Positions 1 through 20,414 are shown, counted from the stretch's first letter. The stretch: 64,000 nt of DNA from Halomarina salina (GCF_023074835.1 NZ_JALLGW010000002.1:434001-498000), one strand, 5' to 3'. Made by a program: numbers and translations. The notes: a model not told the origin generated them from the sequence alone.

Positions 1-54
1 GATACCCGGCGTCTCGCGGACCTGCGCGGCGACCCGGTCGCGCGTCTCGCTCAT
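1..54 (-). pseudogene. 5' fragment of a two-winged-helix regulator gene
   Basis: The first 18 codons (MSETRDRVAAQVRETPGI) of the 170-residue regulator at 39460-39972 lie here and run off the window edge. Its ATG overlaps the stop of the upstream membrane-protein gene (ATGA), as in the complete copy. Whether the rest of the gene exists to the left is unknown. Confidence 0.7.
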
Positions 55-362
55 CGGCGCTCACCCGTGGCTCGCGCGCGGTCCGACCGGACGGAGTAGA
101 CGGCGACCAGCAGGAACCCGACCAGCGCCACGTCGAGGACGTGTTCGAGCGTGTGGTGGACGCCGTCGGCGAGGAGTCCGTCGAGCATGAGCAGTCCGGC
201 GACGGTCCGAGCGAGCAGCGTCGCGAGCGCGAGGAGGACGAGCAGGTACGACCGGGAGCGCCGCTGGACGTACGCGACGCCAGCGAGACCGACGAGCAGC
301 AGCGACCCGCCGCCCGCGAGGACCAGCGAGAGCGCGAGTCCCGACCCGTGTCCTGCACCCAT
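51..362 (-). CDS. small three-helix membrane protein (left copy)
   Basis: A 103-residue protein with three hydrophobic segments (about residues 8-30, 38-60 and 76-92) and a short Arg-rich cytoplasmic tail. I do not recognise a named family. Its stop overlaps the start of the winged-helix regulator gene by four bases (ATGA), so the two are probably co-translated, which suggests a sensor or partner for that regulator. The same protein is encoded at 39969-40280. Confidence 0.75.
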   Translation of the reverse strand: MGAGHGSGLALSLVLAGGGSLLLVGLAGVAYVQRRSRSYLLVLLALATLLARTVAGLLMLDGLLADGVHHTLEHVLDVALVGFLLVAVYSVRSDRARATGERR

Positions 363-441
363 TGCTACCGACCGTAGCCGCTCGACCGGCTTTCGGGTTC
401 TGGTTCGCGCGTCGAAACGGTCGGCAGTCGGTGGTTCGCAG

Positions 442-1107
442 TCAGAGGTCGGCGACCATCTCGCTCACGACCTGTAGCTCCTCCTCGTTGACGCCGTGGC
501 CCATCGCCTCGTAGATGCGCTCGTCCACCTCGCCGCCCAGCCCCTCGAATATCTCGCGCGTCTCGTGGACCCGTTCGAGCGGGATGTGCGGGTCCCGGTC
601 CGAACAGCCGAGGAAGACCGGCGTGCCGTCGAGCGACCCGTCGTAGTCCCGCGGCGTGTCGTCCGGGCCGACGACGCCCCCCGACAGTGCGGCGTGCCCG
701 CCGCGACGCTGCGCGTTGCGCGCGAGGAACTCGCTGGAGATGCACGCCCCCTGCGAGAAGCCGACCGTCATCACCTTCTCGGGGGGGACGCCTGCGTCCG
801 TTGCGGTCGCGATGGCGTCGGCGATAGCCTGTAACCCGGAGTCGAGACCGGGCTGGTTCGACTCGGTGGGTTCGAGGAAGGAGTTCGGGTACCAGGTGTT
901 CCGCGCGGCCTGCGGCGCGAGCAGTGCCACGTCGTCTCGCCCCTGGCTCACCTGCCGAGCGAGGTCGAGGATGCTCCGCGCCGTCGCGCCGCGCCCGTGG
1001 ATGGCGACGACGGCGGCCTCGGCCTCCGCCGGGTCCGCGCCGCCCGTCACGAGCGGCTGGGACTGGTGTGGTCCGTCCACCGGGTCGTCGGGACCGAGCG
1101 AACTCAT
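442..1107 (-). CDS. phospholipase/carboxylesterase family alpha/beta hydrolase (left copy)
   Basis: A 221-residue alpha/beta hydrolase of the phospholipase/carboxylesterase (YpfH/acyl-protein thioesterase) family. The nucleophile elbow GFSQG puts the catalytic Ser at about residue 118, with Asp170 or Asp172 in the SDRDPHIP segment and His204 in MGHG. The family hydrolyses short carboxylic or thioester substrates; the natural substrate here is unknown. The ATG at 1107 is preferred to the upstream in-frame start at 1335 because the family fold begins after it, a GGGAGG ribosome-binding-like stretch precedes it, and the extension would run through the divergent HxlR gene. It is divergent from that regulator, a common pairing for regulator and target. 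Confidence 0.85.
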   Translation of the reverse strand: MSSLGPDDPVDGPHQSQPLVTGGADPAEAEAAVVAIHGRGATARSILDLARQVSQGRDDVALLAPQAARNTWYPNSFLEPTESNQPGLDSGLQAIADAIATATDAGVPPEKVMTVGFSQGACISSEFLARNAQRRGGHAALSGGVVGPDDTPRDYDGSLDGTPVFLGCSDRDPHIPLERVHETREIFEGLGGEVDERIYEAMGHGVNEEELQVVSEMVADL

Positions 1108-1216
1108 CGGGCGTCCCTCCCGTCGGTCGACCGGTTTCGTAGTTGCATCGATAAACCTGGTTACGAGGCGAACTACTTTAACCGTTCGCGGACGAACGGG
1201 ACACCAGGTGACATCG
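1108..1216. promoter_or_regulatory. divergent promoter region between hydrolase and HxlR regulator
   Basis: The region holds an AT-rich box ACTTTAA (1175-1181) reading towards the regulator and ATAAACC (about 1151-1157; GGTTTAT on the minus strand) reading towards the hydrolase. These are the only TATA-like stretches between the two divergent starts. Confidence 0.5.
1182..1199. promoter_or_regulatory. perfect inverted repeat, candidate HxlR operator (left copy)
   Basis: CCGTTCG (1182-1188) and CGAACGG (1193-1199) form a perfect 7-bp inverted repeat with a 4-base spacer. It lies directly downstream of the TATA-like box and 17 bases before the HxlR start codon. HxlR proteins bind DNA as dimers at such palindromes, so autoregulation by occlusion is a reasonable inference. 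It recurs at 41100-41117 as part of the large duplication. Confidence 0.5.
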
Positions 1217-1594
1217 ATGTCAGGGGAGCAGTACACCGAGGAGGCCTGTGTCGTCATCGACTCCATCGAGCAGATCGGCTCGCAGTGGCGACTGGTCGTC
1301 CTGCACGACCTGCAGGAGGGAGAGAAGCGGTTCAACGAACTGAAGCGCTCGACGGGAGCGTCCTCGCGGACGCTCTCGCGGGTGCTCAGCGACCTGCAGG
1401 AGACGGGCTTCGTCGACCGCAGACTGGAGGAGGACGCGCCGGTCGCGACGTACTACTCGCTGACGGAGAAGGGCTGTTCGCTCCGCCCCGTGTTCGAGGA
1501 GATAGAGTGCTGGGCGAACGACTGGCTCGACGAGAGCGTCGTGGACCCGGAGACGACGCCCGCCGAACCCGAGGCGGACGCGCCCGCCGAGTGA
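1217..1594 (+). CDS. HxlR-family winged-helix transcriptional regulator (left copy)
   Basis: A 125-residue protein with the HxlR/MarR-like winged-helix fold. The recognition-helix region reads KRFNELKRSTGASSRTLSRV (about residues 37-56), and the wing YYSLTEKG is near residue 79. An acidic Pro-rich tail closes the protein. The ATG at 1217 follows the promoter and operator and gives the usual family length; longer in-frame extensions would cross the divergent hydrolase gene. HxlR proteins commonly sense redox or electrophile stress, and the two Cys residues (Cys11 and Cys97) could serve, but that is inference. Confidence 0.85.
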   Translation: MSGEQYTEEACVVIDSIEQIGSQWRLVVLHDLQEGEKRFNELKRSTGASSRTLSRVLSDLQETGFVDRRLEEDAPVATYYSLTEKGCSLRPVFEEIECWANDWLDESVVDPETTPAEPEADAPAE

Positions 1595-1628
1595 CGTCGG
1601 GGGGCCCTACTGACGTACTGTTCGTCCC

Positions 1629-2213
1629 TCAGTCCGGGCGTTCGAGCCTGAACCGGTCCTCTGTCGTGCTGTAGTAGCTCCCCGCGAGGCGACCGACCGC
1701 GTCGAGTTTCCTGACGTCCGGTTTCCCGTCCGTGAGCAGGTCGTCGTCGACGTGGGCGTGGACCACCTCGCCGAACACGAGCGTCTGGCGGCCGATCTCC
1801 TGCGTGTCGTACAGTTCGCACTCCAGCACGACCGGCACGTCCGCGATTCGTGGTGCATCGACGCGCGTGGCGTCGACGCGTTCGAGGTGCGCGTGCTCGA
1901 ACTCGTCCTCGCCGGGCGCGAGCGTCGCACTCGTCGCGTTCATCGCTTCGGCGAAGTCACGGGTGACGACGTGGACGGTGAACGTCTCGCTCTCGATGGC
2001 GTTGTTCGCGCTGTCCTTGCGGTGTTCGCCGGTGCCGCCGGGGGCGAAGTAGACGACCGGCGGGTCGGGCGAGACGACGTTGAAGAACGAGTACGGCGCG
2101 AGGTTCGCCCGGCCCTCGGCGTCGTAGCTTCCGACCCACGCGATTGGTCGGGGGACGACGACACCGCCGAGCAGACGGTACGCCGACCCGAACTCCTCGG
2201 GTGCGCCCTCCAT
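1629..2213 (-). CDS. flavin reductase-like FMN-binding split-barrel protein (left copy)
   Basis: A 194-residue member of the flavin reductase/flavoredoxin (DIM6/NTAB) family. The family motif PRPIAWV (about residues 22-28) and the FMN-contact segment NLAPYSFFN (about residues 38-46) are clear. Such proteins bind FMN and reduce flavin or act in electron transfer. The gene starts directly at the stop of the VOC gene (TGA then ATG with no gap), so the two are one transcription unit. The partner may be an oxygenase-like VOC enzyme using the reduced flavin pool, but no substrate can be assigned. Confidence 0.85.
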   Translation of the reverse strand: MEGAPEEFGSAYRLLGGVVVPRPIAWVGSYDAEGRANLAPYSFFNVVSPDPPVVYFAPGGTGEHRKDSANNAIESETFTVHVVTRDFAEAMNATSATLAPGEDEFEHAHLERVDATRVDAPRIADVPVVLECELYDTQEIGRQTLVFGEVVHAHVDDDLLTDGKPDVRKLDAVGRLAGSYYSTTEDRFRLERPD

Positions 2214-2837
2214 TCAGGCCCGCCCCTCGGAGACGTCCGTCCCGGTCGGTGCGTCGGGCAGGTCGTGCTCCTCGACCGGGAGGTCCAGCGCCTCCAGCGC
2301 GGTCCGGAGGTCCTCGCCGCGGACGTACTCCGCTTCCGCTTCGACGCGCGCTGCGTGGGCGCGGGCGAGCACCTCGGCGCGGCGGTCGTCCGGAATGGCG
2401 AACTTGTCGGCGACGAGTTCGATGGTCAGGCCGTTGTGGTCCCTGGTGTAGAGGCTGTGGAACGCGCCGCGGTCGAACTCCGAGAAGCGCCGCCCCGTCT
2501 CCCGCAGGTTCTCGCGGGTCTCGCGGAACTGTTCGGGGTCGAGGCGGAACGCGAGGTGGTGGACCGCGCCGACGTCGGGGTCCTGCCGTTCGACGGAGTC
2601 GCGCTCCTCGTCGCAGAAGAACGTGACGAGGCGGCCGTCGCCCGCGTCGAAGAACAGGTGAGTCTCGTCGGTACTGTCGAGGTTCGGCTGGCGCATCACG
2701 AGGCGCATGCCGAGGGTGTCGCGGTAGAACGCGACGGTGTCCTCGACGGTCGACCCGACGAGCGTGACGTGGTCGGTCCCCTCGACGTGGAGGGTGCTGT
2801 CCGGGCGGTCGGCGGTGACTGGGGGGTCGCTGCTCAC
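2214..2837 (-). CDS. VOC-family (glyoxalase/extradiol dioxygenase-like) protein (left copy)
   Basis: A 207-residue vicinal-oxygen-chelate protein. The beta-alpha-beta-beta-beta modules show likely metal ligands: His in GTDHVTL (about residue 23), His in AVHHLAF (about residue 92) and Glu in GLTIELVAD (about residue 140). This is the His-His-Glu set of extradiol dioxygenases and related lyases. The C-terminal roughly 60 residues are a charged extension beyond the core fold. The stop codon abuts the ATG of the flavin reductase gene. Confidence 0.8.
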   Translation of the reverse strand: MSSDPPVTADRPDSTLHVEGTDHVTLVGSTVEDTVAFYRDTLGMRLVMRQPNLDSTDETHLFFDAGDGRLVTFFCDEERDSVERQDPDVGAVHHLAFRLDPEQFRETRENLRETGRRFSEFDRGAFHSLYTRDHNGLTIELVADKFAIPDDRRAEVLARAHAARVEAEAEYVRGEDLRTALEALDLPVEEHDLPDAPTGTDVSEGRA

Positions 2838-2947
2838 GGGGGCGCTACGAGCCGACGGCGTATAGCCTCCCGTGGACGCGGCGGTTAGCGGGTGGCACGA
2901 GCGTCACCTGGATGGTGACGAGCGGACGAGTTCACCGCAGCGAACCG

Positions 2948-3793
2948 CTACCCGAGGTTCAGTATCTCGCGGGTCTCGTCGGGGGTCGCCACGGGTCGAC
3001 CGAGCGTCTCGGCGACGGAGACCACTCGCTCGACGAGTTGCGCGTTGCTCTCGGCGAGTTCGCCGCGGCGGTAGTAGACGTTGTCCTCCAGGCCGACGCG
3101 GACGTGGCCGCCGAACAGCAGCCCCATCGTCGCGAACGGGAGCTGGTGGGGGCCGAACCCGAGCGTGTTGAACGACGCACCGTCGGGAAGGTCGTGGACG
3201 AGGGCGAGGAGGTTCTCGGGCGTCGGCCGCGTGAGCGTCCCCGACCCGAAGATGAGCGTCGCGTACACCGGGTCGTCGAGGTCGCGGCGCTCCAGCAGCT
3301 CGTAGGTCTCGGTCACCTGCCCGCCGTTGAACAGTTCGAGTTCGGGCTTGATTCCCCGCTCGCGCATCTCGTCGTACAGTCTGTCGATGGTGGCGCGCGT
3401 GTTCTCGCTCGTCAGGTGCTGGTAGCGGTTGAGCGGCCCCATGTCGAGGCTCGCCATCTCCGGGGCGGGGTCCGTGCGCAGGGGCTGGAGGCGCGCCTCG
3501 TCGGACGCGCCGGTCGCCCCCGTCGAGTGCTGGACGACGAGGTCCGGCGCGCGGGAGCGAATCTCGTCGTCGATGGCCTGGAAGCGCTCGGTCGAGAACG
3601 CTCGCTCGCCGTTGTCCGCGCGGGCGTGGACGTGGACGACGCTCGCGCCGGCCTCCCGGCAGGCGGCGGCCGCCTCGCCGATCTCCGCGGGCGTCTCGGG
3701 GAGGTTCGGGTTCGCCTCCTTGCCGTGGACGCCGCCGGTGAGCGCGGCGGTGACGATGGCCGGCTCGCCCGCGAGGTAGTCGTCGTAGCTCAC
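2948..3793 (-). CDS. BKACE (DUF849) beta-keto acid cleavage enzyme (left copy)
   Basis: A 281-residue TIM-barrel enzyme of the BKACE family. These enzymes condense a beta-keto acid with acetyl-CoA to give acetoacetate and a new CoA ester. Family signatures are ALTGGVHGKEAN near residue 17, VHVHAR near residue 53, and GGHVRVGLEDNVYYRRGELA near residue 228. Zn ligands are expected among the His and Glu residues of these motifs. It overlaps the upstream Cys-containing small gene by four bases (ATGA). With the VOC and flavin reductase genes it suggests a catabolic cluster for an organic acid, substrate unknown. Confidence 0.88.
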   Translation of the reverse strand: MSYDDYLAGEPAIVTAALTGGVHGKEANPNLPETPAEIGEAAAACREAGASVVHVHARADNGERAFSTERFQAIDDEIRSRAPDLVVQHSTGATGASDEARLQPLRTDPAPEMASLDMGPLNRYQHLTSENTRATIDRLYDEMRERGIKPELELFNGGQVTETYELLERRDLDDPVYATLIFGSGTLTRPTPENLLALVHDLPDGASFNTLGFGPHQLPFATMGLLFGGHVRVGLEDNVYYRRGELAESNAQLVERVVSVAETLGRPVATPDETREILNLG

Positions 3794-3975
3794 TCCTGGT
3801 CCTCCGCCGCACGGTAGAACTCGCAGTCCGTCTCGTGGTCGAGGCTCCAGCGGTCGTTACAGATGTCGGCGCGCATCGGCTGGACGAACGCGTCGACGGC
3901 GGTGCAGTACGCTCGGTCGGTGTCGAACGACCGCTCCTCGTCCGCGTCGCGGTACTCCAGATACGGGCAGGTCAT
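3790..3975 (-). CDS. small Cys-containing acidic protein (left copy)
   Basis: A 61-residue protein beginning MTCPYLEYRD, with four Cys residues (about 3, 24, 39 and 51) that could bind a metal or an Fe-S centre. The ATG at 3975 is preferred over an upstream in-frame start at 4002 because homology-like content begins at MTCPYL. It overlaps the BKACE start by four bases, so it is probably the first gene of that operon. No function is assigned. Confidence 0.65.
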   Translation of the reverse strand: MTCPYLEYRDADEERSFDTDRAYCTAVDAFVQPMRADICNDRWSLDHETDCEFYRAAEDQE

Positions 3976-4112
3976 GGAACGGGGGACGCGCGAGTTCGCC
4001 AAAAGCGTTCGCTGATTGCGAGGTCACCGGGGTGTCGGGGACTCGGACGTGAGTAGGGCACCGCAGCCGACCACAGCGCACTTGTCGACGCGTCGAATCG
4101 TCCGGGTATCAC

Positions 4113-5297
4113 GTGTCCCTCCGCTCGTGGCCCCACCGCCGGACGGTGCTCGCCTGCTGCGTCGTCGCCTACTTCGGCGTCCGGTTCGCGGAGTACGTCC
4201 TCACAATCGTCTACCCGGACGTTCGGGCGGGCGTCGGCGTCTCCGACCTCACGCTCGGCGTCGGCTTCACCGCGAGCACGGTCACCTACGCGCTCGCCCA
4301 GTTGCCCAGCGGCGCGCTCGGTGACCGGTTCGGCGCACGACGGGTCGTGCTGGCGGCGCTCCTCGGGACTGCCGTCGCCAGCCTCCTCCTCGCGGGAGCC
4401 ACCTCGGGGGCCGTGCTCGTCGGCGCGATGGCACTGCTCGGTGCGGTCGGCGGCGCGTACTACAGTCCGGCGACGGCGCTCCTCGCAGACCGGTTCGACG
4501 CCACCGGCCGCGCCATCGGCGTCCACCGACTCGGCGCGCAGGTGGTCGGCCTCACCGGCCCGCTGGTCGCGCTCGTCGGCGTGAGATACGGCTGGCGGGT
4601 CGCCCTCGCGTCGGGGGCGGCCGTCGCGCTCCCGGCGTTCGTCGGGTTCGCGCTGTTCGTCCGACCCCGTGGTCAGAGCGTGCCTCCGGAGTCGACGACC
4701 GCGCTCCGCGAACGACTCGACGCCGGGACGCTCCGGGAACTGCTCTCGCGACGACCCATCGCGGTGACGACGGCCGTCGCCGCCCTCGCGCAGTTCGCCG
4801 ACACGGCCGCGTTCTCCTACCTCCCCGCCGTCCTGCGTACGTATCACGGGCTCTCGCCGACGCTCGCCGGGACGCTGTTCGCCGGCTACTTCGCCGTCCA
4901 GGCGGCCATCCAGGTGCCGACGGGGTGGCTCTCGGACCGGGTCGGTCGCGACCCGGTCGTCGTCGGGACGCTGCTGTCGGGCGTCGCCGGGTTCTGTCTG
5001 CTCGTCGTGGGCGACCGGACGGCCGTCGTCACCCTCGGCGTGGGGCTCGTCGGCGTCGGGATGGGATGGAGCCCCGCGGTGCAGTCGCGGTTCCTCGACC
5101 ACCTCGACGCGGAGGAGTCTGGTCACGGGTTCGGCCTCGTCCGGACCGTCTACATCGGGTTCGCCGCGCTCTGTGGGCTGGTCGTCGGTGGGGCGGTGAC
5201 CGTCTCCGGGTGGGGACTCGCGCTCTCGACGCTCGCCGGAGCGATGGCGCTGGCGACGCTGGTGGTCGTCGTGAGTCGGGTCGAGAGGAAGTGGTGA
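4113..5297 (+). CDS. MFS transporter (left copy)
   Basis: A 394-residue major facilitator superfamily protein with about twelve hydrophobic helices and the loop-2/3 signature GALGDRFGARRVVL (about residues 67-80). A related loop, GWLSDRVGRDPVVV, lies in the second half. The start is the GTG at 4113, right before the first helix. The substrate cannot be told from sequence. It ends ten bases before the 3' end of the convergent PAP2 gene. Confidence 0.88.
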   Translation: MSLRSWPHRRTVLACCVVAYFGVRFAEYVLTIVYPDVRAGVGVSDLTLGVGFTASTVTYALAQLPSGALGDRFGARRVVLAALLGTAVASLLLAGATSGAVLVGAMALLGAVGGAYYSPATALLADRFDATGRAIGVHRLGAQVVGLTGPLVALVGVRYGWRVALASGAAVALPAFVGFALFVRPRGQSVPPESTTALRERLDAGTLRELLSRRPIAVTTAVAALAQFADTAAFSYLPAVLRTYHGLSPTLAGTLFAGYFAVQAAIQVPTGWLSDRVGRDPVVVGTLLSGVAGFCLLVVGDRTAVVTLGVGLVGVGMGWSPAVQSRFLDHLDAEESGHGFGLVRTVYIGFAALCGLVVGGAVTVSGWGLALSTLAGAMALATLVVVVSRVERKW

Positions 5298-5307
5298 GGC
5301 TGTCCAG

Positions 5308-6120
5308 TCAGTTCCCGCGCGCCACCGGGTTGAACCGGTCGGGGTCGACGCGCTGGGTGAACCAGTAGACGCCCGCCGCGAGCACGGCCGCGGCCAGCGC
5401 GTCGGTCAGCCAGTGGATACCGAGGTACAGCGTCGACAGCACGATGATGAACGCGAGTGCGCTCACCAGCCGCGAGTACTTCTCGCTCGCGTTCCGCGCG
5501 TACAGCGCCGCGAGCACCGAGAGCCCGGTGTGGAGGCTCGGGAACGCCTTGACCAGCGTGTCCGTCGCCATCACGCCGGCGCGGATGATGGGGTTGAAGT
5601 CCAGCATCAGCGGCCGCACCTCCAGCAGGTACAGCCCCGGAATGCCGACCGGGAACAGCAGGAAGAACGGCACGGCCAGCAACACGAGGACGATGTACGC
5701 CATCGCGTAGCGACGCGCCTGTCCCTCGTCGTGTGCCTTCAGCTTGAAGTACGTGAACAGCACGATGAACGGGAAGCCCACGAGGTACGCGACGGTGAAG
5801 AACGCCGTCAGCGCGTACGCCGCCCACTCGGGGACGATAGCAGTCACCGACTGGAACGTGGCGACCGCCGGGCCTTCGAGTTCGTAGACGTAGTTGGTGA
5901 ACGTTCGGTCGGCGTGGAACCGGTGTGCGAGTTCGTTGACGCAGAACGTCACGACCCACGCGAGACCGATGTACCGCCAGTCAGTTCGGAGGAACTCCCG
6001 GACGAACGCCACGGGGCGAAGGTCGGGGAGGAAGACGCGTGCGCCGACGAGGAAGGCGACCAGCGCGGCCGCTGTCATCCCCACGACGTACTGCGTCTCC
6101 GGTTGGAGGGGGACCATCAT
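5308..6120 (-). CDS. PAP2-superfamily membrane phosphatase, PAP2_3-like (left copy)
   Basis: An integral membrane protein of about 270 residues with six helices. The active-site motifs KAFPSLHTG and LYLGIHWLTD match the PSxH and SRxxxxxHxxxD blocks of lipid phosphatases of the AUR1/PAP2_3 type. It probably removes phosphate from, or transfers head groups on, isoprenoid lipids. Two adjacent ATGs (6120 and 6117) follow a TATA-like box on this strand, so I start at 6120. The GTG at 6132 is less likely. Confidence 0.82.
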   Translation of the reverse strand: MMVPLQPETQYVVGMTAAALVAFLVGARVFLPDLRPVAFVREFLRTDWRYIGLAWVVTFCVNELAHRFHADRTFTNYVYELEGPAVATFQSVTAIVPEWAAYALTAFFTVAYLVGFPFIVLFTYFKLKAHDEGQARRYAMAYIVLVLLAVPFFLLFPVGIPGLYLLEVRPLMLDFNPIIRAGVMATDTLVKAFPSLHTGLSVLAALYARNASEKYSRLVSALAFIIVLSTLYLGIHWLTDALAAAVLAAGVYWFTQRVDPDRFNPVARGN

Positions 6121-6148
6121 TGCAAGGTGCACGTATCGCTAATGAGGC

Positions 6149-6156
6149 TAAATATC
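6149..6156 (-). promoter_or_regulatory. TATA box for PAP2 gene (left copy)
   Basis: TAAATATC (GATATTTA on the coding strand) lies about 30 bases upstream of the paired ATGs in an AT-rich patch that stands out from its high-GC surroundings. The spacing fits a near-leaderless archaeal promoter. The equivalent site in the other copy is 46067-46074. Confidence 0.5.
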
Positions 6157-6287
6157 TTTTCTTCTAGAGTTACTGGCACGTTCGGTGTCACTCCACCGCA
6201 CGGTCCACGACCACCATCGCACGACCACCACCGGACGGTCACCGCCATCGAGACAGCGTTTTGCACCCCGGAACCGAACGTCGAGGC

Positions 6288-7013
6288 GTGCAAGTCGTGG
6301 GCTACGACCGCTCCGACCCCGCTCTCCGCCTCGCCAGCGACGGCGACCTCTCGCGGCAGGTGCTCGCGCCCGGTACGGACCTCGCGTACACGCTCGGCGA
6401 ACGACACTGTGCGGGCCGCATCGACTACGAAACCGAGCGCCACGAGTTCTGTGCGAACCCGGCGGCACCCTACTGTCCCACGCACACCGTCCCCTGGTCG
6501 GTCCAGTCGAACGCAGACTCGACGGAGGAACACGCCGTCTACCTCGCCGCGTTCGCCCCCGACGTGTTCAAGGTCGGCGTCACTCGCTCGTGGCGACTGG
6601 AGACGCGCCTCCGCGAGCAGGGGGCCGACCGCGCCGCGCACATCCACACCGTCAGCGACGGCCGCGTCGCCCGCGACCTGGAGGCCGAGATCGCCCGGGA
6701 CGTCGGCGACCAGGTCCGCGTGGCGACGAAGGTGGCCGGACTCCACGAACAGGTCGACGAGACGGCGTGGGAGGCACTGCTGGCCGACCACCGCGTCGTC
6801 GAGCGCTTCGACTTCGACTACGGCGTCGACCTCGACGCGCGACCGGTCGCCGAGACGCTGCTGACGGGGACGGTCCGCGCGACGAAGGGCCGAATCCTCC
6901 TGCTCGACCGCGGCGGCACGACGTACGCCGTCGACCTGCGGGACCTGCTCGGCTACGAGGTGCACGAGGAGGCGGACGGTCGCGCGCTCCAGTCGAGTCT
7001 CGGGAGTTTCTGA
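6288..7013 (+). CDS. DUF2797 family protein (left copy)
   Basis: A 241-residue protein matching haloarchaeal DUF2797 proteins. An N-terminal Cys/His cluster (CAGRIDYETERHEFC then YCPTH) could bind zinc. The central segment VFKVGVTRSWRLETRLREQG resembles the core of GIY-YIG nucleases, followed by a charged C-terminal half. I start at the GTG at 6288 because the preceding in-frame TTG at 6261 lies in the probable promoter region. Nuclease activity is inference; the family is uncharacterised. Confidence 0.75.
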   Translation: MQVVGYDRSDPALRLASDGDLSRQVLAPGTDLAYTLGERHCAGRIDYETERHEFCANPAAPYCPTHTVPWSVQSNADSTEEHAVYLAAFAPDVFKVGVTRSWRLETRLREQGADRAAHIHTVSDGRVARDLEAEIARDVGDQVRVATKVAGLHEQVDETAWEALLADHRVVERFDFDYGVDLDARPVAETLLTGTVRATKGRILLLDRGGTTYAVDLRDLLGYEVHEEADGRALQSSLGSF

Positions 7014-7077
7014 ACGAGGTCGCGAGCGCCGTCGCTCACGACGACTGGAGCGAAAACTGAAAGAACGCGACGACGCG

Positions 7078-7596
7078 TCAGTTACGCGATTCGAGCGCGT
7101 CGGCGATGCGTTCGAGTTCGCGGCGGACGTCGTGGACCTCGTCGCGGACCTTCCGGACCTCGCGGACGAGTTCCTCGTTGGCGCGGTCGTTCTCGCCGCG
7201 TTCGCGGGGGTCGGGGCCGCCGCCCATTCCGGGCGGACCGCCGCCCATGCCACCGGGGCCGCCGCCCATGCCGCCACCGCCCATCCCGCCGGGGCCGCCG
7301 CCGCCCATCATACCGCCCATCATCTGGGCGAACGGGTTGCCGCCACCGCCCATCCCACCGGGACCACCCTCCTCGCCGCCGAACGCCTCTTCGAGACGCT
7401 CCTCGGGCGAGCGGTCGTCGGGGCCGCCCTCGCCCTCGCGCTGTTCGGCGCGCTGCTGTCGGATCTCCTCGACGCGTTCGCGGAACGACTTCTCCTCGCC
7501 CGCGTCGTCGCCCGCCTCGTCGTCACCGCTCACGATTGGCTCTTCGTCGGCCGATTCGTCGGACGGCGTCTCCTCCGTCGGGTCGTCGTCACTCAT
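7078..7596 (-). CDS. low-complexity Gly/Met-rich acidic protein (left copy)
   Basis: A 172-residue protein in three parts: an acidic N-terminus (residues 1-70), a Gly-Met-rich tract of GPGGMGGG-type repeats (about residues 75-127), and a charged C-terminal helix with coiled-coil character (NEELVREVRKVRDEVHDVRR region). It has no membrane segment and no recognised domain. The Met/Gly tract could drive self-association or bind soft metals; both are inference. Confidence 0.7.
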   Translation of the reverse strand: MSDDDPTEETPSDESADEEPIVSGDDEAGDDAGEEKSFRERVEEIRQQRAEQREGEGGPDDRSPEERLEEAFGGEEGGPGGMGGGGNPFAQMMGGMMGGGGPGGMGGGGMGGGPGGMGGGPPGMGGGPDPRERGENDRANEELVREVRKVRDEVHDVRRELERIADALESRN

Positions 7597-7669
7597 GGGC
7601 CGCCCTTCTCGGCCACGTCACAAAAGGATGTGTGACTGGCGTCGGTCGCAAAGTGAGTCGTCAGCGTGG

Positions 7670-7972
7670 CTACAGTCGACGGACGACCAGCGAGATGCCG
7701 ACCGCCGCCAGGAGCAGGACGCCGAGGTTGAACGCCGCCTGGTACAGCGGCTGGTAGCGCTCGCTCACCCACACGTCGATGGCGTGGGAGGCGCTGCCGT
7801 AGAAGTTCACCGTCGCCACCAGCGCCAGCAGGACGCAGAGACCGAGCGCGCCATAGAGGAGGTACGTCCGCAACTGGTCGGCGTCGAGCGCGGTCCGGGT
7901 GCGTGCGCTCGGGCCGTAGTCGGCGTTGGGTCGGTCGACGGCGTCCTCGCCGTCGCGCGTCTCGGAGCTCAC
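7670..7972 (-). CDS. two-helix membrane protein (left copy)
   Basis: A 100-residue protein with an acidic N-terminal tail and two transmembrane helices (about residues 36-57 and 79-97). The first helix carries LLYGALGLCVLLALVATV. Its ATG overlaps the stop of the upstream PGF-CTERM surface-protein gene by four bases (ATGA at 7969-7972), so the two are co-translated. Function unknown. Confidence 0.72.
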   Translation of the reverse strand: MSSETRDGEDAVDRPNADYGPSARTRTALDADQLRTYLLYGALGLCVLLALVATVNFYGSASHAIDVWVSERYQPLYQAAFNLGVLLLAAVGISLVVRRL

Positions 7973-8976
7973 GCCGACCGCCTCCGGGCGAGCAGCGCCG
8001 TGCCGAGCACCGCGACCAGCGCTACGACGACGCCGAAGCCGGGACCCTGACCGTCGGATTCGTAGGATTGGGTGCGGGCGGGGCGGTCGTCGGTCGGTTC
8101 GTCGGAGTCGAAGTCGCTCACCTGGAGGCCGGTGTCGGTGGTGGTCTGGTTCATGGGAATCGTCTTCGTGGGGTCGAGTGCTGCGGGGGCGCGGACGGTG
8201 TCGACCACGACGCCGTCGCGCAGCAACACGGCGTCGAGGTAGTAGTTGTACTGCGTCGGGACCGTCAGGTCGAGCGACGCGGTGGCGGTGCGGCCGGGGC
8301 GGACCTCGCTGACGTCGACGGTCGACCGGTCGGCGACGATGCCGGAGTCGACCTGCCGGGCCTTGACCAGCAGTTCGACGTCGCCGACCACGTCGTCGCC
8401 GGTGTTCGTCAGGAGGGCGTCGACGGCGAGCGTCGTCCGGTCGTCGTCGCTGGCGGCGATTTCGAACTCGACGGCGGGCATCGGCCCGTCGAACCGGTGG
8501 AACTGGAGGTCGCTCTCGGCGAACGCGGGCTGGAGCGACCCGACGCCCGAGACCGACCGGCGGGTCTCGACGATTCGGCGCTCGTTCTGGTAGACGATGG
8601 ACTCGACGCGGTAGTCGCCCGAGCGCGGGACGGTGATGTTCGCGGTGACCGCCCGTTCGCGGTCGCCGTCGACCGTGCCGACCGCGACGGTGCGCTCGGT
8701 CTCGACGAGGCCGGACGCGGCGTCGACGGCGCGGACGCGGAGGGTGACGTTGTCGGCCGCGCCGCCGCGGTGTTTCAGTCGGGTCTCGACGCGGAGGGTC
8801 GCCGTCTCGCCGGTGACCGCGCCGGTGCCGATGGCGAGGTCGCTCACGGCGAGCCTGCTGGGTGGTTCGGGGTCCTGCTGGGGGGCCGCGAGGACGCCCG
8901 GGACGGCCACCATCCCGACGGCCGAGACGAGGACCACCAGCGCGACGCCGGCAGCGAGGACCAGATTCCTATCCAT
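7969..8976 (-). CDS. PGF-CTERM-anchored surface protein (left copy)
   Basis: A 335-residue exported protein. An N-terminal signal (residues 1-30) is followed by two beta-rich Ig-like regions (about 40-160 and 165-270), a Thr/Asp-rich stalk and the C-terminal tripartite signal: PGFG, a hydrophobic helix and RRRSA. PGF-CTERM proteins are processed by archaeosortase A and lipid-anchored outside the cell. The two repeated regions suggest a ligand-binding or adhesive role. It is coupled to a downstream two-helix membrane protein. Confidence 0.82.
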   Translation of the reverse strand: MDRNLVLAAGVALVVLVSAVGMVAVPGVLAAPQQDPEPPSRLAVSDLAIGTGAVTGETATLRVETRLKHRGGAADNVTLRVRAVDAASGLVETERTVAVGTVDGDRERAVTANITVPRSGDYRVESIVYQNERRIVETRRSVSGVGSLQPAFAESDLQFHRFDGPMPAVEFEIAASDDDRTTLAVDALLTNTGDDVVGDVELLVKARQVDSGIVADRSTVDVSEVRPGRTATASLDLTVPTQYNYYLDAVLLRDGVVVDTVRAPAALDPTKTIPMNQTTTDTGLQVSDFDSDEPTDDRPARTQSYESDGQGPGFGVVVALVAVLGTALLARRRSA

Positions 8977-9115
8977 GCACCGACACTCGGGAGGTAGATG
9001 ATATGCTTTGTGTTCAACAGGTCACGACGAGGAACCATCCGGACGAGCGGCGCGAGGTCTCGTAGCGACCGACTCGTCCGGAGACCGGTGGCGAGCGTCG
9101 CCCGAATCGGCGGGG

Positions 9116-9120
9116 TTTAT
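9116..9120 (+). promoter_or_regulatory. TATA-like box for 67-residue membrane protein (left copy)
   Basis: The TTTAT core of GGGGTTTATCC lies about 20 bases before the ATG at 9139, consistent with a leaderless transcript. It supports that ATG over the longer in-frame extension that begins at 8998. Confidence 0.45.
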
Positions 9121-9138
9121 CCGGTCGCTCCACGAGCG

Positions 9139-9342
9139 ATGCGTATGGAAGCGTCAGTCGGGTCCGATATGGGCCTCGGCCTCGGACTGCTGTTCGGTGC
9201 GCTCGGCGTCGGCGGCGCGCTCGTGATGCTCGTCGCCGCGTTCGACGAGATGCAGGTGCTCGCGGGGATGGGGTTCGCCGCCGCGATGGTCGCCGGGACC
9301 GTCCTCATCGCCGCGTTGCATCTCGCCGAGCAACCCCGGTGA
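9139..9342 (+). CDS. small two-helix membrane protein (left copy)
   Basis: A 67-residue protein with two Gly/Ala-rich transmembrane helices (about residues 11-33 and 38-60) and almost no soluble part. The ATG at 9139 sits just behind a TATA-like box; the upstream in-frame sequence is Arg-rich and unlike haloarchaeal protein. Small membrane proteins of this type are widespread in haloarchaea, function unknown. Confidence 0.7.
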   Translation: MRMEASVGSDMGLGLGLLFGALGVGGALVMLVAAFDEMQVLAGMGFAAAMVAGTVLIAALHLAEQPR

Positions 9343-9388
9343 CCAGCGACCGCAGGCCGTAACCGTTAATCCGCGCAATCGCCTAGCG

Positions 9389-9622
9389 ATGGCTATGGCA
9401 GAGTTGAGCGAGGAAGACCAGCAGATCCTCGAGTACCTTCGCGACAGCGTCGCGAACGGTAACCAGTACTTCCGCGCCAAACGCATCGCGAAGGGAGTCG
9501 GTCTCACCGCGAAGCAGGTCGGTGCCAGACTGCCCCGACTCGCCGACAGCGCCGACGACGTCGACATCGAGAAGTGGGGTCGCGCCAAGTCCACCACGTG
9601 GCGAGTAACCCCCGGTGCCTGA
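9389..9622 (+). CDS. DUF7123-like small winged-helix-type protein (left copy)
   Basis: A 77-residue protein with helix-turn-helix character: EEDQQILEYLRD, then AKRIAKGVGLTAKQVGARLP, then a WRVTP strand at the end. This is the layout of a small winged helix. It resembles haloarchaeal DUF7123 proteins, predicted DNA-binding. ATG 9389 and ATG 9395 are both possible. An AT-rich CCGTTAATCC element lies about 20 bases upstream. Confidence 0.72.
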   Translation: MAMAELSEEDQQILEYLRDSVANGNQYFRAKRIAKGVGLTAKQVGARLPRLADSADDVDIEKWGRAKSTTWRVTPGA

Positions 9623-9666
9623 CCGGAACCCCACGGTAATTTTCCGCTGCGGTTCGTAGTACCCCC

Positions 9667-10092
9667 ATGACCGTACGCGTCGAACGGACGTTCGACCTCG
9701 ACGCCTCCCCCGAGGAGGTCTGGGCGTTCATCTCCGACCCGCGCAAGCGCGCCGCACCCATCAGCGTCGTCGACGAGTTCGAAGAGACGGGGGAAGGGAC
9801 CGCCGTCTGGCACGTGAAACTCCCCATCCCGCTGCTCAAACGGACCGCGTCCATCGAGACGGAGGAGACCGACGTCCGACCGCCGGAGTACGTCCGGTTC
9901 GTCGGGCGCTCGAAGGTGATGCGCGTCGTCGGCGAACACGAACTCACGCCCCACGGCGACGGCACGCGACTCACGAACCGCTTCACCGTCGACGGGAAGC
10001 TCCCCGGCGTCGAGAAGTACTTCGAGCGCAACCTCGACGGCGAACTCGACAACCTGGAGGACGCGCTCCGCCGCGACCTGGCGACCGCCTGA
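9667..10092 (+). CDS. SRPBCC/CoxG-like ligand-binding protein (left copy)
   Basis: A 141-residue START-like protein. The first strand VERTFDLDASPEEVWAFISD and the C-terminal long helix (YFERNLDGELDNLEDALRRD region) define the SRPBCC helix-grip fold, which binds small hydrophobic ligands. It ends seven bases before the nitrilase start, so the two are probably co-transcribed. The ligand is unknown. Confidence 0.8.
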   Translation: MTVRVERTFDLDASPEEVWAFISDPRKRAAPISVVDEFEETGEGTAVWHVKLPIPLLKRTASIETEETDVRPPEYVRFVGRSKVMRVVGEHELTPHGDGTRLTNRFTVDGKLPGVEKYFERNLDGELDNLEDALRRDLATA

Positions 10093-10098
10093 GTATCC

Positions 10099-10607
10099 AT
10101 GCGACTCGCCCTCGCGCAACTCGACGTCGAACCGACCGACGTGACGGAGAACGTCGACCGCGCGGTGGCCGCCGTCGACCGGGCGAGCGACCGCGGCGCG
10201 GACCTCGTCGTCCTCCCGGAACTGTTCACCGTCGGCTACTTCGCGTTCGACAGCTACGCCCGCAGCGCCGAGTCCCTCGACGGACCGACGCTCACCCGCC
10301 TCGCGGAGGCCGCCCGCGACCACGAGGTGGGCATCGTCGCGGGGAGCATCGTCGAGGACCTCGCGACGACCGACGGCGGCCCCGCCGAGGAGGGCCTCGC
10401 CAACACCTCCGTCTTCCTCGACCGGGCGGGCGACCGCCGCGCCGTCTACCGCAAGCGCCACCTGTTCGGCTACGACTCCGCGGAGTCCGACCTGCTCGTC
10501 GCGGGCGAGTCGCTGCCCACCGTGGACTTCGACGGGTTCACCGTCGCCACGACGACCTGTTACGACCTGCGCTTCCCCGAACTGTACCGCCGCCTCGTCG
10601 ACGACGG
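10099..10607 (+). pseudogene. 3'-truncated carbon-nitrogen hydrolase (nitrilase) gene
   Basis: The first 169 codons of the 265-residue nitrilase at 50017-50814, cut at the right end of the duplication. The catalytic triad (Glu41 in LPELF, Lys119 in YRKRH, Cys154 in TTCYDLRFPE) is retained, but about 95 C-terminal residues of the fold and dimer interface are lost. The frame stays open to 11022 by reading the opposite strand of the adjoining acyltransferase fragment. That would add about 138 unrelated residues and is unlikely to give a working enzyme. Confidence 0.85.
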
Positions 10608-10995
10608 AGCCAGCTGCCACGACTGCATTCGGTCCGATTTCGACACCGGGAGCGATTACAGCGCCTGCACCGACGAACGCCCCGTCGTGGAGAATAATTC
10701 GCTCGAACACATCGTCGCGGAGTTCCATACCGTCTTCACCGAGATCGTGCGTGACCCCCACGATACTGCAGTTTGGACCGACCTGTACTTCGTCACCGAT
10801 CTCGGCGTTTTCGACGAAACAGCCTGCGTTGATGTCAACGCTATCGCCCACGTGGCACTTCTTGAGCGATGTCCGCTCGTAGATGCCACAGTCGTCTCCT
10901 ACCGTGGAGTCATGAACGGTCACGTATTCACGAACCATCGATTCACCGATTTCAGACTCTACGACCCGTGTCGAGTCGTCAACATCACGTGCCAT
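10608..10995 (-). pseudogene. 3'-truncated hexapeptide-repeat acyltransferase gene
   Basis: About 129 residues of a left-handed beta-helix (hexapeptide) transferase, starting at the ATG at 10995. Repeats such as VGDDCGIYERTSLKKCHVGD, IGDEVQVGPNC and IAPGVEIGPNAVVAAGS are clear, as in sugar O- or N-acyltransferases of surface-polysaccharide loci. The family normally continues as GSVVTKDVP; here the sequence passes GSVV and then enters the duplicated DNA, so the 3' end is lost. GC content is visibly lower (roughly 55 percent) than in its neighbours, suggesting origin in a genomic island. Confidence 0.75.
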
Positions 10996-11081
10996 ACACT
11001 TGACGCAAATTCCCTCCGCTAATCAGTACCGGTTACTCACTGCTGATAGCCGAGAACGCTGTTCACCCTCGACGCTGCCGT

Positions 11082-12038
11082 TCAGGCCTCGACGTACTCC
11101 AGGTCGTCCACGTCCTCGCCGCGGACCACGGCGACGAACTCGCCGGGGTGTTCGTAGTGAGGCAGGAGCAGAGCGTCGTCGAACACGACGAGTCGGGCGT
11201 CCGCGGCCTCGGCCAGGTCGTGCCCGCGTTCGACCGGGAGCATGTCGGTGGCGTTCCGTCCCCAGACGAGCGTGACGGGGATATCCAGGTCGGCGAGCGT
11301 CGCCTCCAGGTCGGCGTCCGAGTCGAGGAAGCCGCCGACGAACGACGCGGGCGCGAACCGCGCGCCGGGCTGGTGGGCCAACTGCCAGCGGTACTCCGTC
11401 CACTCCGGGTCGGCGTGGCTGGTGTCGTAGAAGCCGTGGTCGGCCTGGAAGTACTGTAACGAGCGCTTGCTCGCCAGCAGGTTGAACAGGCCCTCGCCGA
11501 CGAGCGGTGCGCGCAGCAGCGACCGGAGCCACGTGCGCCGCCCCGGTACCGTCGTCGTCGTGGGGCTGACGAGGACGAGTTCGCGCACGTCGAGGTCGCC
11601 CTCCGCCACCGAACGAGCGACGTACGCCGAGGAAAGCGACGACCCGACGACGGTGGCGTCCTCGCTGGTGTCTCGCAGGAAGTCGGCGACGAACGTCTCG
11701 TACAGCGACGCGGAGTACATCAGCGGTGGCCGGTCCGAGAGGCCGAACCCCGGCAGGTCGGGTGCGAGGACGTGGTACTCCTCGGCCAGCGCGTCGAACA
11801 CCGGGACGAACTCGGCCGACGAGGCGGCGGCGTTGACGCCGTGGAACAGGACGAGGTCCGGGTCGTCCGGGTCGCCCGCCTCGGTGTACGAGACGTCGAA
11901 CCCGCGCCAGCGGTACGTCTGGGTCGCTCGGCCCAGCGGCGTGTGCGGCGTCGACGCCCGGTCCGACAGCAGTCGGTTGGCGACGGCTGTCCCCCCGAGG
12001 CCGGCGACCGCACCGACGAGAAGCTTACGAATGCGCAT
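11082..12038 (-). CDS. alpha/beta hydrolase with N-terminal membrane anchor
   Basis: A 318-residue alpha/beta hydrolase of the epoxide-hydrolase/lipase-like group. A short hydrophobic N-terminus (residues 5-22) may anchor or export it. The oxyanion motif LFHGVNA is near residue 64. The nucleophile elbow is GSSLSS (Ser134), with a probable acid near DMLPVERGHD and the His in LPHYEHP near the C-terminus. The substrate is unknown. It precedes a 150-base gap before the MeaB gene on the same strand. Confidence 0.83.
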   Translation of the reverse strand: MRIRKLLVGAVAGLGGTAVANRLLSDRASTPHTPLGRATQTYRWRGFDVSYTEAGDPDDPDLVLFHGVNAAASSAEFVPVFDALAEEYHVLAPDLPGFGLSDRPPLMYSASLYETFVADFLRDTSEDATVVGSSLSSAYVARSVAEGDLDVRELVLVSPTTTTVPGRRTWLRSLLRAPLVGEGLFNLLASKRSLQYFQADHGFYDTSHADPEWTEYRWQLAHQPGARFAPASFVGGFLDSDADLEATLADLDIPVTLVWGRNATDMLPVERGHDLAEAADARLVVFDDALLLPHYEHPGEFVAVVRGEDVDDLEYVEA

Positions 12039-12189
12039 GGTCTCCGTAGGACGGTCGGGCGCTTAATCCCTGTCCACGCGGTGTCAGTTCCCTCGCCGCA
12101 CGTGACCGTCTCGCTCGCTCCGACGTCGCCTCGACCCAGGTCGCCTCGGCCGAGTCTTCTCAGTCGAAGCCACCTCGACCGTACTCGCC

Positions 12190-13230
12190 TCAGCCGTCGC
12201 GTTCGGCGTCGACGCACTCCTCGATGGGCGTGACGAGTTCGTCCGCGACGGCGTACGGGTCGGTCTCGCGGGCCAGCACGCGCTCGACGTACTCCTCGAT
12301 TCCGCCGCGGGCGGCGAGTTCGCCCGCGACGAGCTGGTTGACGTCCTCGCGGAGGAGCGTGCGTATCTCCTCGGCGTAGCGCTGGCGCGCCCGCTCCTCG
12401 CCGGTCCCCGACTCCTCCAGGTATCGGGCGTGGTCCGCGAGCGTCTCGACGAGTTCCTCGACGCCGGTTCCCTCCTCGGCGACCGTCTCCAGGACGACCG
12501 GCTCCCAGCCCTCCTCGTCCGCCTCGCTCTGGGTGACGCGCTCCATCGCGGCCGCCGCGTCGCCCCCGTGGTGCTCGGCGGTCTCGGTGTAGTCGTTCCG
12601 GGTGTCGATCATCTCCCGGAGTTCCATCACGGTGCGGTCCGAGCCGGGCAGGTCGGCCTTGTTGACGACGAACACGTCGCCGATTTCGAGGATGCCCGCT
12701 TTGAGCATCTGCACGTCGTCGCCGCTGCCGGGCGGGACGAGGACGGCGACCGTGTCGGCGGTCTTCACGATGTCTATCTCGTTCTGCCCCGCGCCGACCG
12801 TCTCGACGATGACCTTGTCCTTGCCGAACGCGTCGAGGGCCTTGACGGCGTCCGCGGTGGCCGTCGAGAGGCCGCCGAGGCTGCCGCGAGCGCTCATCGA
12901 CCGGAAGAACACGTCCATGTCGCCCGAGACGCTCGCCATCCGGATTCGGTCACCCAGGACGGAGCCGCCGGTGAACGGCGAGGAGGGGTCGATGGCGATG
13001 ACGCCGACGGTGAGACCCTCGTCGCGGTAGTGCTTCGCGAGTTTGTCGACGAGCGTCGACTTCCCCGCGCCCGGCGACCCGGTGACGCCGATGACGTCGG
13101 CGTCCCCCGTGTGCTGGTACAGTTCGCTGACGAGGTCGCGGTAGCCCGGCGTGCGGTTCTCTATACGTGTGATGGCGCGGGCGAGCGCTCGGTGCTTCCC
13201 CGCGAGCAGGTCGTCGATGAGGTCGCCCAT
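12190..13230 (-). CDS. meaB: methylmalonyl-CoA mutase-associated GTPase MeaB
   Basis: A 346-residue G3E-family GTPase (MeaB/ArgK). Walker A GSPGAGKS is at residues 51-58, the signature DPSSPFTGGSVLGDRIRM follows, then ETVGAGQNE (switch) and NKAD for guanine specificity. MeaB gates cofactor loading and protects adenosylcobalamin-dependent methylmalonyl-CoA mutase. Its ATG overlaps the stop of the B12-binding mutase subunit by one base (TGATG), so the two are translationally coupled. The pair serves propionyl-CoA/methylmalonyl-CoA interconversion. The large catalytic subunit is not in this window. Confidence 0.95.
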   Translation of the reverse strand: MGDLIDDLLAGKHRALARAITRIENRTPGYRDLVSELYQHTGDADVIGVTGSPGAGKSTLVDKLAKHYRDEGLTVGVIAIDPSSPFTGGSVLGDRIRMASVSGDMDVFFRSMSARGSLGGLSTATADAVKALDAFGKDKVIVETVGAGQNEIDIVKTADTVAVLVPPGSGDDVQMLKAGILEIGDVFVVNKADLPGSDRTVMELREMIDTRNDYTETAEHHGGDAAAAMERVTQSEADEEGWEPVVLETVAEEGTGVEELVETLADHARYLEESGTGEERARQRYAEEIRTLLREDVNQLVAGELAARGGIEEYVERVLARETDPYAVADELVTPIEECVDAERDG

Positions 13231-13649
13231 CAGTCGCGCTGGGGAGCGTTCTCGCGGACGAACTCGACCGCCTCCTCCATCGACGCGCCGGGGCCGAAGA
13301 TACCGCCGACGCCCGCCTCCTTCAGTTCGGGCCGGTCGTCTTCGGGGATGATGCCGCCGACGACGACGAGCGTGTCGTCCAGCGCGTCGTACTCCTCGAG
13401 CCCCTCGAGAATCTTCGGGACGAGCGTGTTGTGCGCCCCCGAGAGGATGGAGATGCCCAGCACGTCGACGTCCTCCTGGACGGCGGCCTGGACGACCTCG
13501 TCGGGCGACCGGTGGAGCCCCGAGTAGATGACTTCGAACCCGGCGTCGCGGAACGCCCGCGCGATGACGTGTGCCCCCCGGTCGTGACCGTCCAGCCCGA
13601 CTTTCGCTACCAGACAGCGGATGGTCCGCTGGTCCGTATCTGCGCTCAT
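13230..13649 (-). CDS. methylmalonyl-CoA mutase B12-binding (C-terminal) subunit
   Basis: A 139-residue stand-alone cobalamin-binding subunit. The motif DGHDRG (Asp20 to Gly25) is the DxHxxG signature whose His ligates cobalt. The partner loops SILSG and GGIIP are in place. ATG 13649 (MSADTDQ) gives the usual family length; the upstream start at 13673 adds eight unlikely residues. With the missing large subunit it would convert (R)-methylmalonyl-CoA to succinyl-CoA. It overlaps meaB by one base. Confidence 0.92.
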   Translation of the reverse strand: MSADTDQRTIRCLVAKVGLDGHDRGAHVIARAFRDAGFEVIYSGLHRSPDEVVQAAVQEDVDVLGISILSGAHNTLVPKILEGLEEYDALDDTLVVVGGIIPEDDRPELKEAGVGGIFGPGASMEEAVEFVRENAPQRD

Positions 13650-13793
13650 GACCCCCGCTTCACGGGGTGGCACATTGACTCTAACGAACTGTCTAAGGAG
13701 ACCGGAGCGGGGCGACCGGACCGACTAGGACCTACCGGTCGGACTGCGACTGCTCTGTACGGACGTCTCGGTCGTGTGACGTCGAGTCGGTCG

Positions 13794-13798
13794 AAAAA
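13794..13798 (-). terminator. T5 tract after cohesin gene A
   Basis: AAAAA on the plus strand reads as a T5 tract on the coding strand about 50 bases beyond the stop at 13849. It is the only such run in the gap. Archaeal termination uses U-tracts, so this is a candidate end of the cohesin-dockerin transcription unit. Confidence 0.4.
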
Positions 13799-13848
13799 GT
13801 GACGCCTGCGGGGCCGGTGGGACCGACCCGACCACGTGGTTCTGCGGA

Positions 13849-15147
13849 TTACGCGGGCGCGCTCGCGTCGACCTCGTCGCCGTCGGGCAACTCGACGGTG
13901 AGGGAGTACTCGCCGGGGCCGAACGTCCCGGTGGACGCGTCGACCATCTCCTGCGAGACGCCCCGGTCGAAGCCAGCGCCGGGCTTCTCGTAGCTCACGA
14001 GGCTCAGCGTGAGTTCACAGCCGTCGTCGACGGCGAACGATATCGTCGCCGTGCCGTCTTCGACCTGGACGTAGCCCGCGTCGAGGCAGGCCGCCGCGTC
14101 GTCGGCGAGCGTCGGTGTCGACCCGCTGCGGGTCGTCCGGTCGTCGACGCCGTGCGCGTACCGGACGAGGCGCTGCTCGTCGCTGTAGAACCCGTCGTCG
14201 GGTCCGACGTGCGATTTCGGTTCGCCGACGACGAAGTCGACCTGGAAGTAGGTCGACTCGCCGTCGTCACCATCGTCGCCGTCCGTACCGTCATCGGGTG
14301 TCTCCGTCGGCTGTTCGGTGGGCTGCTCGGTGGGTTCTTCCGTCGGCTCCTCGGTGGTCGACGGTGGCTCCTCAGTCGTCGCCGGCGGTTCGTCGGTCGT
14401 CGCCGGGGGTTCTTCCGTGGTCGTTGGCGGCTCCTCCGTGGTCGTTGGCGGTTGCTCCGTAGTGGTCGGCGGTTGCTCCGTGGTCGCCGGTGGCTGTTCG
14501 GTCGTCGCTGGCGGTTCTTCCGTGGTGGCCGGCGGTTCGTCGGTCGTCGCCGGTGGCTGTTCGGTCGGTTCGTCGGTGGTCACCGGCGGCTCGTCCGTGG
14601 TCGCTGGTGGCTCCTCCGTGGGCTGGTCCGTCGACGACCCGACGGTGAGCGACGAGTCGCTCACGCTGGTGACGGCGAGACTCGCGCCCGCGGCGTCGCC
14701 CGCGGCGACGTCGAAGAGGTCGATGCCGGTCTGGCCGTCGGCGGTGCCCACGACGGTCACCGTCGCGACGACGACGCTGCTCCCGGTGAGCGGGTCGTTG
14801 CCGTAGATGGCCTCGAACGCGGCCGAGTCACCGTCGGCCGCGACGCGGGCACTCTCCAGTGCCGGCGACCCGCCCAGCGAGACGGCGGTTATCTCGGCGA
14901 CCGAGGGGTTCGTCAGCGCGACGTCGCCCTCGATGGCTCCGACGGTGTCCGCGCCCTCGACGACGACGTCGAAGGTGACGCTCTCGCCGTTCGCTATCGT
15001 CGGGTTCGCGGGCGACGCGGCGACGGTCACTCCGTCCTCCTGAGCGAGGGCGATGGGGGTCATCGCCCCGACGAGGAGCAGGAGTACTCCCAGTATCGCC
15101 AGTGTCTGCGTGCGGTACGTCGGTCGGGTCCTGTGTTTCGGTGTCAT
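13849..15147 (-). CDS. secreted cohesin-like protein with Thr-Glu-Pro linker (protein A)
   Basis: A 432-residue exported protein. A signal peptide (1-35, ending ALAQ) is followed by a cohesin-like beta-sandwich (about 38-170; core VTFDVVVEG, ALTNPSVAEITAVS and ATVTVVG strands) and a long Thr/Glu/Pro linker of TTEEPP-type repeats (about 173-284). An Asp-rich spacer and a C-terminal beta-rich domain (about 298-432) complete it. It has no dockerin and no membrane or PGF-CTERM anchor. By analogy with cellulosome scaffoldins the cohesin would bind dockerins of the neighbouring proteins; the C-terminal domain could bind cell surface or substrate. It is the last of four same-strand genes. Confidence 0.8.
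   Translation of the reverse strand: MTPKHRTRPTYRTQTLAILGVLLLLVGAMTPIALAQEDGVTVAASPANPTIANGESVTFDVVVEGADTVGAIEGDVALTNPSVAEITAVSLGGSPALESARVAADGDSAAFEAIYGNDPLTGSSVVVATVTVVGTADGQTGIDLFDVAAGDAAGASLAVTSVSDSSLTVGSSTDQPTEEPPATTDEPPVTTDEPTEQPPATTDEPPATTEEPPATTEQPPATTEQPPTTTEQPPTTTEEPPTTTEEPPATTDEPPATTEEPPSTTEEPTEEPTEQPTEQPTETPDDGTDGDDGDDGESTYFQVDFVVGEPKSHVGPDDGFYSDEQRLVRYAHGVDDRTTRSGSTPTLADDAAACLDAGYVQVEDGTATISFAVDDGCELTLSLVSYEKPGAGFDRGVSQEMVDASTGTFGPGEYSLTVELPDGDEVDASAPA
14296..14631 (-). repeat. in-frame Thr-Glu-Pro linker repeats
   Basis: A degenerate tandem repeat coding for about 16 units of TTEEPPA/TTDEPPA/TTEQPP type. DNA units are about 18-21 bases and differ mainly at third codon positions. 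It is typical of the glycosylated linkers between modules in extracellular proteins. It is coding sequence, not a CRISPR or minisatellite. Confidence 0.8.
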
Positions 15148-15204
15148 CGGTTGGTGTGTCGTCTATCGCTGTGTGCTGGTCGTCGGCTGTGCTGTGGTGT
15201 GGTC

Positions 15205-16980: not shown

Positions 16981-17105
16981 TCGTCTTCTGTCGTGGTCGT
17001 TCGCGCTGCTGGTCGAGTCGTGTCCGTTCGGCGGCCGAACGGGGTCGATGGGGCGACGTGGCGGGGAGAGGTTGACCTCTGGAGTCCGGCCGCCGGTCGC
17101 GCATC

Positions 17106-17126: not shown

Positions 17127-17143
17127 GTGGCTGTGGCGCTGGC

Positions 17144-20400: not shown

Positions 20401-20414
20401 CCGGTTGCGGTCGC

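Follow-up and report, generated by a model that had tools for sequence, protein, structure and literature searches.

A 39.9-kb head-to-tail repeat with an 8-bp microhomology at its junction in a haloarchaeal draft genome

Does a perfect repeat in a draft genome record a recent duplication, or was one sequence placed twice during assembly? The locus that raises this question lies in a genome of 10 contigs and 4.46 Mb. The window analysed here, meaning the whole stretch of 64,000 nucleotides, corresponds to positions 434001-498000 of contig C2, which is 684,479 bp long.

Extent and layout of the repeat

Direct comparison of the sequence with itself at an offset of 39918 showed that window bases 1-10607 equal 39919-50525 letter for letter, with 0 mismatches, and that divergence begins at 10608 and 50526. 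The identical run includes a Gly/Met repeat tract on the minus strand at about 7.26-7.33 kb, as the first-pass annotation had reported. That annotation had described a 10.6-kb duplication with a 29-kb spacer between its copies and had raised base 1 as a possible contig end, and none of these three points held. The window edge is an arbitrary cut at C2:434001, and the identity continues 29.3 kb leftward past it, to C2:404682. The match covers exactly C2:404682-444607 as one unbroken run of 39,926 bp, of which the 10.6 kb is only the visible end, and its twin is C2:444600-484525. Because the window edge cuts the repeat, the supposed spacer was misread: copy 2 has the segment 10608-39918 as its first part, the beginning of that segment (window 10608-13700) is identical to C2:404690-407782 to the left of the window, and a layout of two separate loci was dropped.

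The layout is left flank, unit, unit, right flank, with the two units head to tail, no spacer between them, and a period of 39,918 bp. The window contains copy 2 in full and the final quarter of copy 1, as follows.

Window 1..10607, plus strand: right-hand end of copy 1, which occupies C2:404682-444607 (window coordinates about -29318 to 10607)
Window 10600..50525, plus strand: complete copy 2 (C2:444600-484525), which directly follows copy 1 and overlaps its end by 8 bp
Window 10600..10607, plus strand: inner tandem junction, the 8-bp microhomology GACGACGG, where the end of copy 1 is the start of copy 2
Window 50518..50525, plus strand: right outer boundary, GACGACGG, within the intact CN hydrolase gene

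A whole-genome search with the window repeat found only two copies. No other repeat of like size was found in a self-comparison of C2 or in the 1.24 Mb of C1 that was covered by sampling, except for an overlap between the ends of C1 and C2; contig C10 was masked. On a smaller scale, two neighbouring related genes of the window (62169-62819 and 63276-63932), whose DNA is 74% identical and whose proteins start with MDSVLIIGGTRFIGRPTV and MPTALTVGGTRFIGRHTV, represent an older local duplication.

The inner junction and the genes at the boundaries

Both outer ends of the repeat lie within intact conserved genes, and the inner junction breaks both of these genes. The reading frames listed next lie in the window.

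Window 10099..11022, plus strand: chimeric CN hydrolase frame of 307 aa, cut at 10607, with its first 169 codons native
Window 10600..10995, minus strand: hexapeptide (left-handed beta-helix) acyltransferase, its C-terminal end lost at the junction
Window 50017..50814, plus strand: intact CN hydrolase (nitrilase-family) of 265 aa, across the right outer boundary 50525/50526, with a full-length Pfam CN_hydrolase match

At position 10607, where a broken gene had already been noticed, translations give residues 1-170 of the CN hydrolase and then unrelated sequence. The chimeric frame keeps the catalytic-Cys region and matches Pfam CN_hydrolase at residues 2-173 only, and its remainder reads antisense through the acyltransferase fragment. 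The truncated acyltransferase, in turn, reads on antisense into the hydrolase to give a frame of 613 aa. At the right outer boundary, the intact hydrolase is 88-89% identical to the Halomarina rubra and H. oriensis genes over residues 1-265, and gene order across the boundary is kept in two relatives. At the left outer boundary, C2:404682, an intact hexapeptide acyltransferase of 158 aa (C2:404604-405077, minus strand) spans the end of the repeat, and its ortholog in a related genome (G004) is intact and 87% identical. The G004 gene has other neighbours, and H. rubra (G006) shows a rearranged left flank; the left boundary is read as ancestral from gene integrity, not gene order. The left flank also carries, in a lower-GC stretch by the boundary and outside the unit, a short repeat around TCGATAGACCTGTGCC at C2:402745 and C2:404530, whose 16-bp core has just these two occurrences in the whole genome.

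The join at 10607/10608 is the sole novel junction, as the first-pass annotation had singled out. A 200-bp probe across it matches whole in this genome only. Its halves (query 1-96 and 93-200), where they are found in relatives, map to separate places, and they never occur together in the seven other genomes of the same genus. Since the outer boundaries are intact and the inner junction is unique to this genome, the outer boundaries look ancestral and the inner junction new, as a tandem duplication predicts. We then asked how often joins at random positions share as much homology. In one million joins drawn at random from this region after removal of the second copy, homology of at least 8 bp arose with a probability of about 6.5e-4 (~0.065%). 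Beyond the octamer the breakpoints are unlike each other, with 5/20 and 7/20 bases matching. Because homology of this length is rare at a random join, an arbitrary seam is unlikely and a short-homology join is the natural reading. The octamer itself is frequent, with 45 occurrences in 104 kb, and this counts against a duplication. Taken together, the intact outer genes, the absence of the junction from relatives and homology beyond chance suggest that the junction probably exists in the DNA and arose by microhomology-mediated recombination.

The draft assembly and the competing readings

Our preferred account, which we hold to be probable though well short of certain from the sequence itself, is that a 39.9-kb stretch of the native chromosome of a Halomarina-like haloarchaeon is truly duplicated in tandem, with its copies joined at an 8-bp microhomology. 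The event would have started from two distant GACGACGG octamers, one in the acyltransferase gene and one in the CN hydrolase gene. Illegitimate recombination or end joining at these octamers, between two sister or homologous chromosome copies, may have joined them unequally, which would leave each gene intact once, at an outer boundary, and create a single new junction truncating both. A short-read assembler would then meet a loop in its graph and write the looped 39,918-bp segment twice.

The assembly bears marks of its making. The two ends of contig C4 share exactly 127 bp, C5 and C7 have exactly 127 bp in common at both ends, and a 24-bp repeat array that lies at the end of C1 also supplies the first 127 bp of C2. 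The largest k used by SPAdes is 127. From the exact 127-bp overlaps at contig ends we infer a de Bruijn short-read assembly with k=127, presumably of the SPAdes type. An assembler of this kind necessarily gives identical copies when it writes them from a single graph path, and it merges any small differences that the real copies may have. The first-pass annotation had set a recent duplication against an assembly artefact; this was the right pair of alternatives, to go with the right novel junction, whereas its size, spacer and contig end were wrong. Its argument that perfect identity implies a recent event is weak, because real copies would share one collapsed graph path. Both copies were possibly written from a single path, and perfect identity therefore does not date the event. 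For copy number, the value of two is likewise soft, as it is read from a draft assembly.

Several contig ends describe the replicons. C2:672320-684479 equals C1:1-12160 in an exact overlap of 12,160 bp, the start of which falls within a sequence that has relatives in C1 at 88-91% identity. With this overlap and the shared 24-bp array, C1 and C2 appear to form a single circular chromosome of about 3.77 Mb, and the one 16S gene of the genome is on C1. C3 and C6, whose ends overlap exactly by 18,080 bp and 8,664 bp, are probably circular replicons with untrimmed ends, and C4 (127 bp) and C8 (207 bp) also look circular by their end overlaps. Once C7 is reverse-complemented, its first and last 127 bases equal those of C5, as though the two were paths connecting the same graph nodes, for example with a collapsed repeat separating them. 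The array of the 24-bp unit CGAGGACGGAGTCAGAGAGGAGAG (C1:3099711-3099874 and C2:1-127) is long enough to break the assembly; the unit preserves the reading frame, and the array may lie inside a gene.

These overlaps bear on the strongest rival explanation, an assembly artefact, in which the segment is single-copy and the assembler or scaffolder connected two paths, one that ends in the segment and one that begins with it, through a chance 8-bp overlap. Exact contig-end overlaps of 127 bp and of 8.7-18 kb mean that the same sequence enters two paths in this assembly, and the 12,160-bp dovetail that links the end of C2 to the start of C1 is the kind of path pair that such a join needs. However, every other long overlap occurs at a contig end. 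A join in a k=127 graph requires real junction reads unless a scaffolder bridged it, and because contig C2 has no N, a scaffold gap does not explain the join. With just 8 bp in common between the two ends, a de Bruijn assembler would need sequence across the inner junction, which favours a real junction. Finally, the probability that both path ends match over 8 bp by chance is below about 1e-3. A real event, rather than misplacement, is favoured by the microhomology and by the two genes broken at the inner junction, and we consider the artefact unlikely. A related candidate, the closure overlap of a circular contig rotated to mid-contig, is possible in principle, but such a seam is expected without microhomology and C2 joins C1 at both ends; it was set aside.

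The principal genes of the unit, in the coordinates of the complete copy, are listed below.

Window 11082..13649, minus strand: alpha/beta hydrolase, MeaB GTPase and B12-binding methylmalonyl-CoA mutase subunit
Window 13849..24764, minus strand: four large proteins, two ending in dockerin type I with malectin (one of them with PKD), one with CARDB and one without a Pfam match
Window 26214..29057: HtrA-like trypsin/PDZ protease (plus strand), ABC-2 permease and ABC ATPase (minus strand)
Window 30542..31078, minus strand: transcription factor E alpha (TFE)
Window 33455..33997, minus strand: tRNA (cytidine56-2'-O)-methyltransferase aTrm56
Window 34906..36345, plus strand: GntP-family permease
Window 42866..45215: beta-keto acid cleavage enzyme (minus strand), MFS transporter (plus strand)

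The unit also encodes DUF2110 and DUF5803 proteins, among others. TFE is normally a single-copy gene in archaea. Much of the cargo is collinear with H. rubra, and GC content is 69% in the unit and 67% in the contig. No integrase, transposase or replication gene was found among the scanned cargo genes, with a few short frames having no match, and a plasmid search returned a single 380-bp match, under a B12-binding-domain gene. No insertion sequence was found at the junction or flanks: the boundaries are inside two coding genes, and the scanned cargo is free of transposases. We conclude that the cargo consists of ordinary native haloarchaeal genes with no evident reason for selection. Within it, the cluster of large proteins at window 15205-24764 (minus strand) combines malectin, CARDB, PKD and dockerin type I domains, and stretches of DNA among its genes are 73-87% alike. 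No cohesin (PF00963) was found in the genome, although two proteins of the cluster end in dockerin.

A second rival accepts the junction as real and places it on a circular extrachromosomal form or on a minority of genome copies, with a single-copy chromosome and an assembler that merged both. Excision at the same octamers would produce an identical junction sequence and graph loop, and the polyploidy of the haloarchaea that have been studied makes mixed states possible (Haloferax volcanii has about 20 genome copies; PMC7776575). However, no replication or integration gene was recognised in the scanned cargo, so persistence of a circle is not expected, and an unequal tandem event is simpler. 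We regard this reading as improbable. A bolder one, which we rate as having a slim chance of being right, is a selected and possibly multi-copy 40-kb amplification carrying TFE, the HtrA-like protease, the ABC, MFS and GntP transporters and the dockerin proteins, which would have arisen by microhomology joining rather than IS recombination and would be heterozygous among the genome copies of a polyploid haloarchaeon.

The weakest explanations can be dealt with briefly. An amplified array of more than two copies, of which the assembler wrote two, is hardly credible: SPAdes scaffolds did report 2 copies or none for simulated tandem arrays of 3 to 5 (PMC6052550, Table 5; motifs of 100-500 bp only), but the cargo offers no obvious selective driver. 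Two insertions of a mobile or integrative element, with GACGACGG serving as attachment or target repeat, would account for the short direct repeats that flank each unit, but this reading is largely refuted and equally hard to credit, because the cargo is native, largely collinear with H. rubra and inclusive of TFE and aTrm56, integrase and transposase are absent among the scanned genes, the GC content of the unit is close to that of the contig, and the right boundary lies inside a gene that is continuous in relatives, so that nothing there implies an empty site.

Implications and comparison with known systems

A tandem duplication joined at 8 bp is an event of a known kind, and we conclude that it is most likely real and fairly ordinary, with a copy number that the draft assembly leaves unproven. 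If true, it would provide a clean natural case of a large archaeal tandem duplication joined at a short homology, and the fate of duplications in polyploid archaea would become testable. In a limited search of the archaeal literature, we found end-joining deletions and no comparable duplication. If it is not true, the locus is a caution that single-copy genes such as TFE can falsely appear duplicated in a draft genome. An amplification or a stable mixed state would be of greater interest.

Bacterial chromosomes undergo spontaneous large tandem duplications without long flanking repeats, through illegitimate or short-homology joins. The locus resembles such duplications, with exact head-to-tail copies, a few bp of homology at the new junction, intact outer genes and broken inner ones; large tandem duplications are reported, for example, in Pseudomonas fluorescens (PMC7661048). 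It differs from them in that the host is a haloarchaeon, the assembly is a draft, and neither a parent nor selection was observed here. IS-flanked or IS-mediated amplifications (PMC13423834) also produce tandem copies of a chromosomal segment, whereas no insertion sequence lies at the junction or at either outer boundary of our repeat. As in the tandem loops unrolled by de Bruijn assemblers (PMC6052550), two exact copies would come from one looped path and copy number may be understated; the motifs there were short (up to 500 bp), in contrast to 40 kb here, and the assembler in our case is deduced from the 127-bp end overlaps only. In Haloferax volcanii, microhomology-mediated end joining has been described and Ku is lacking (PMC7776575), and such joining produces deletions (PMC7521656). 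The products documented in that species are deletions after breaks, in contrast to the tandem duplication here, and the two systems share a short homology at the joint and a haloarchaeal host.
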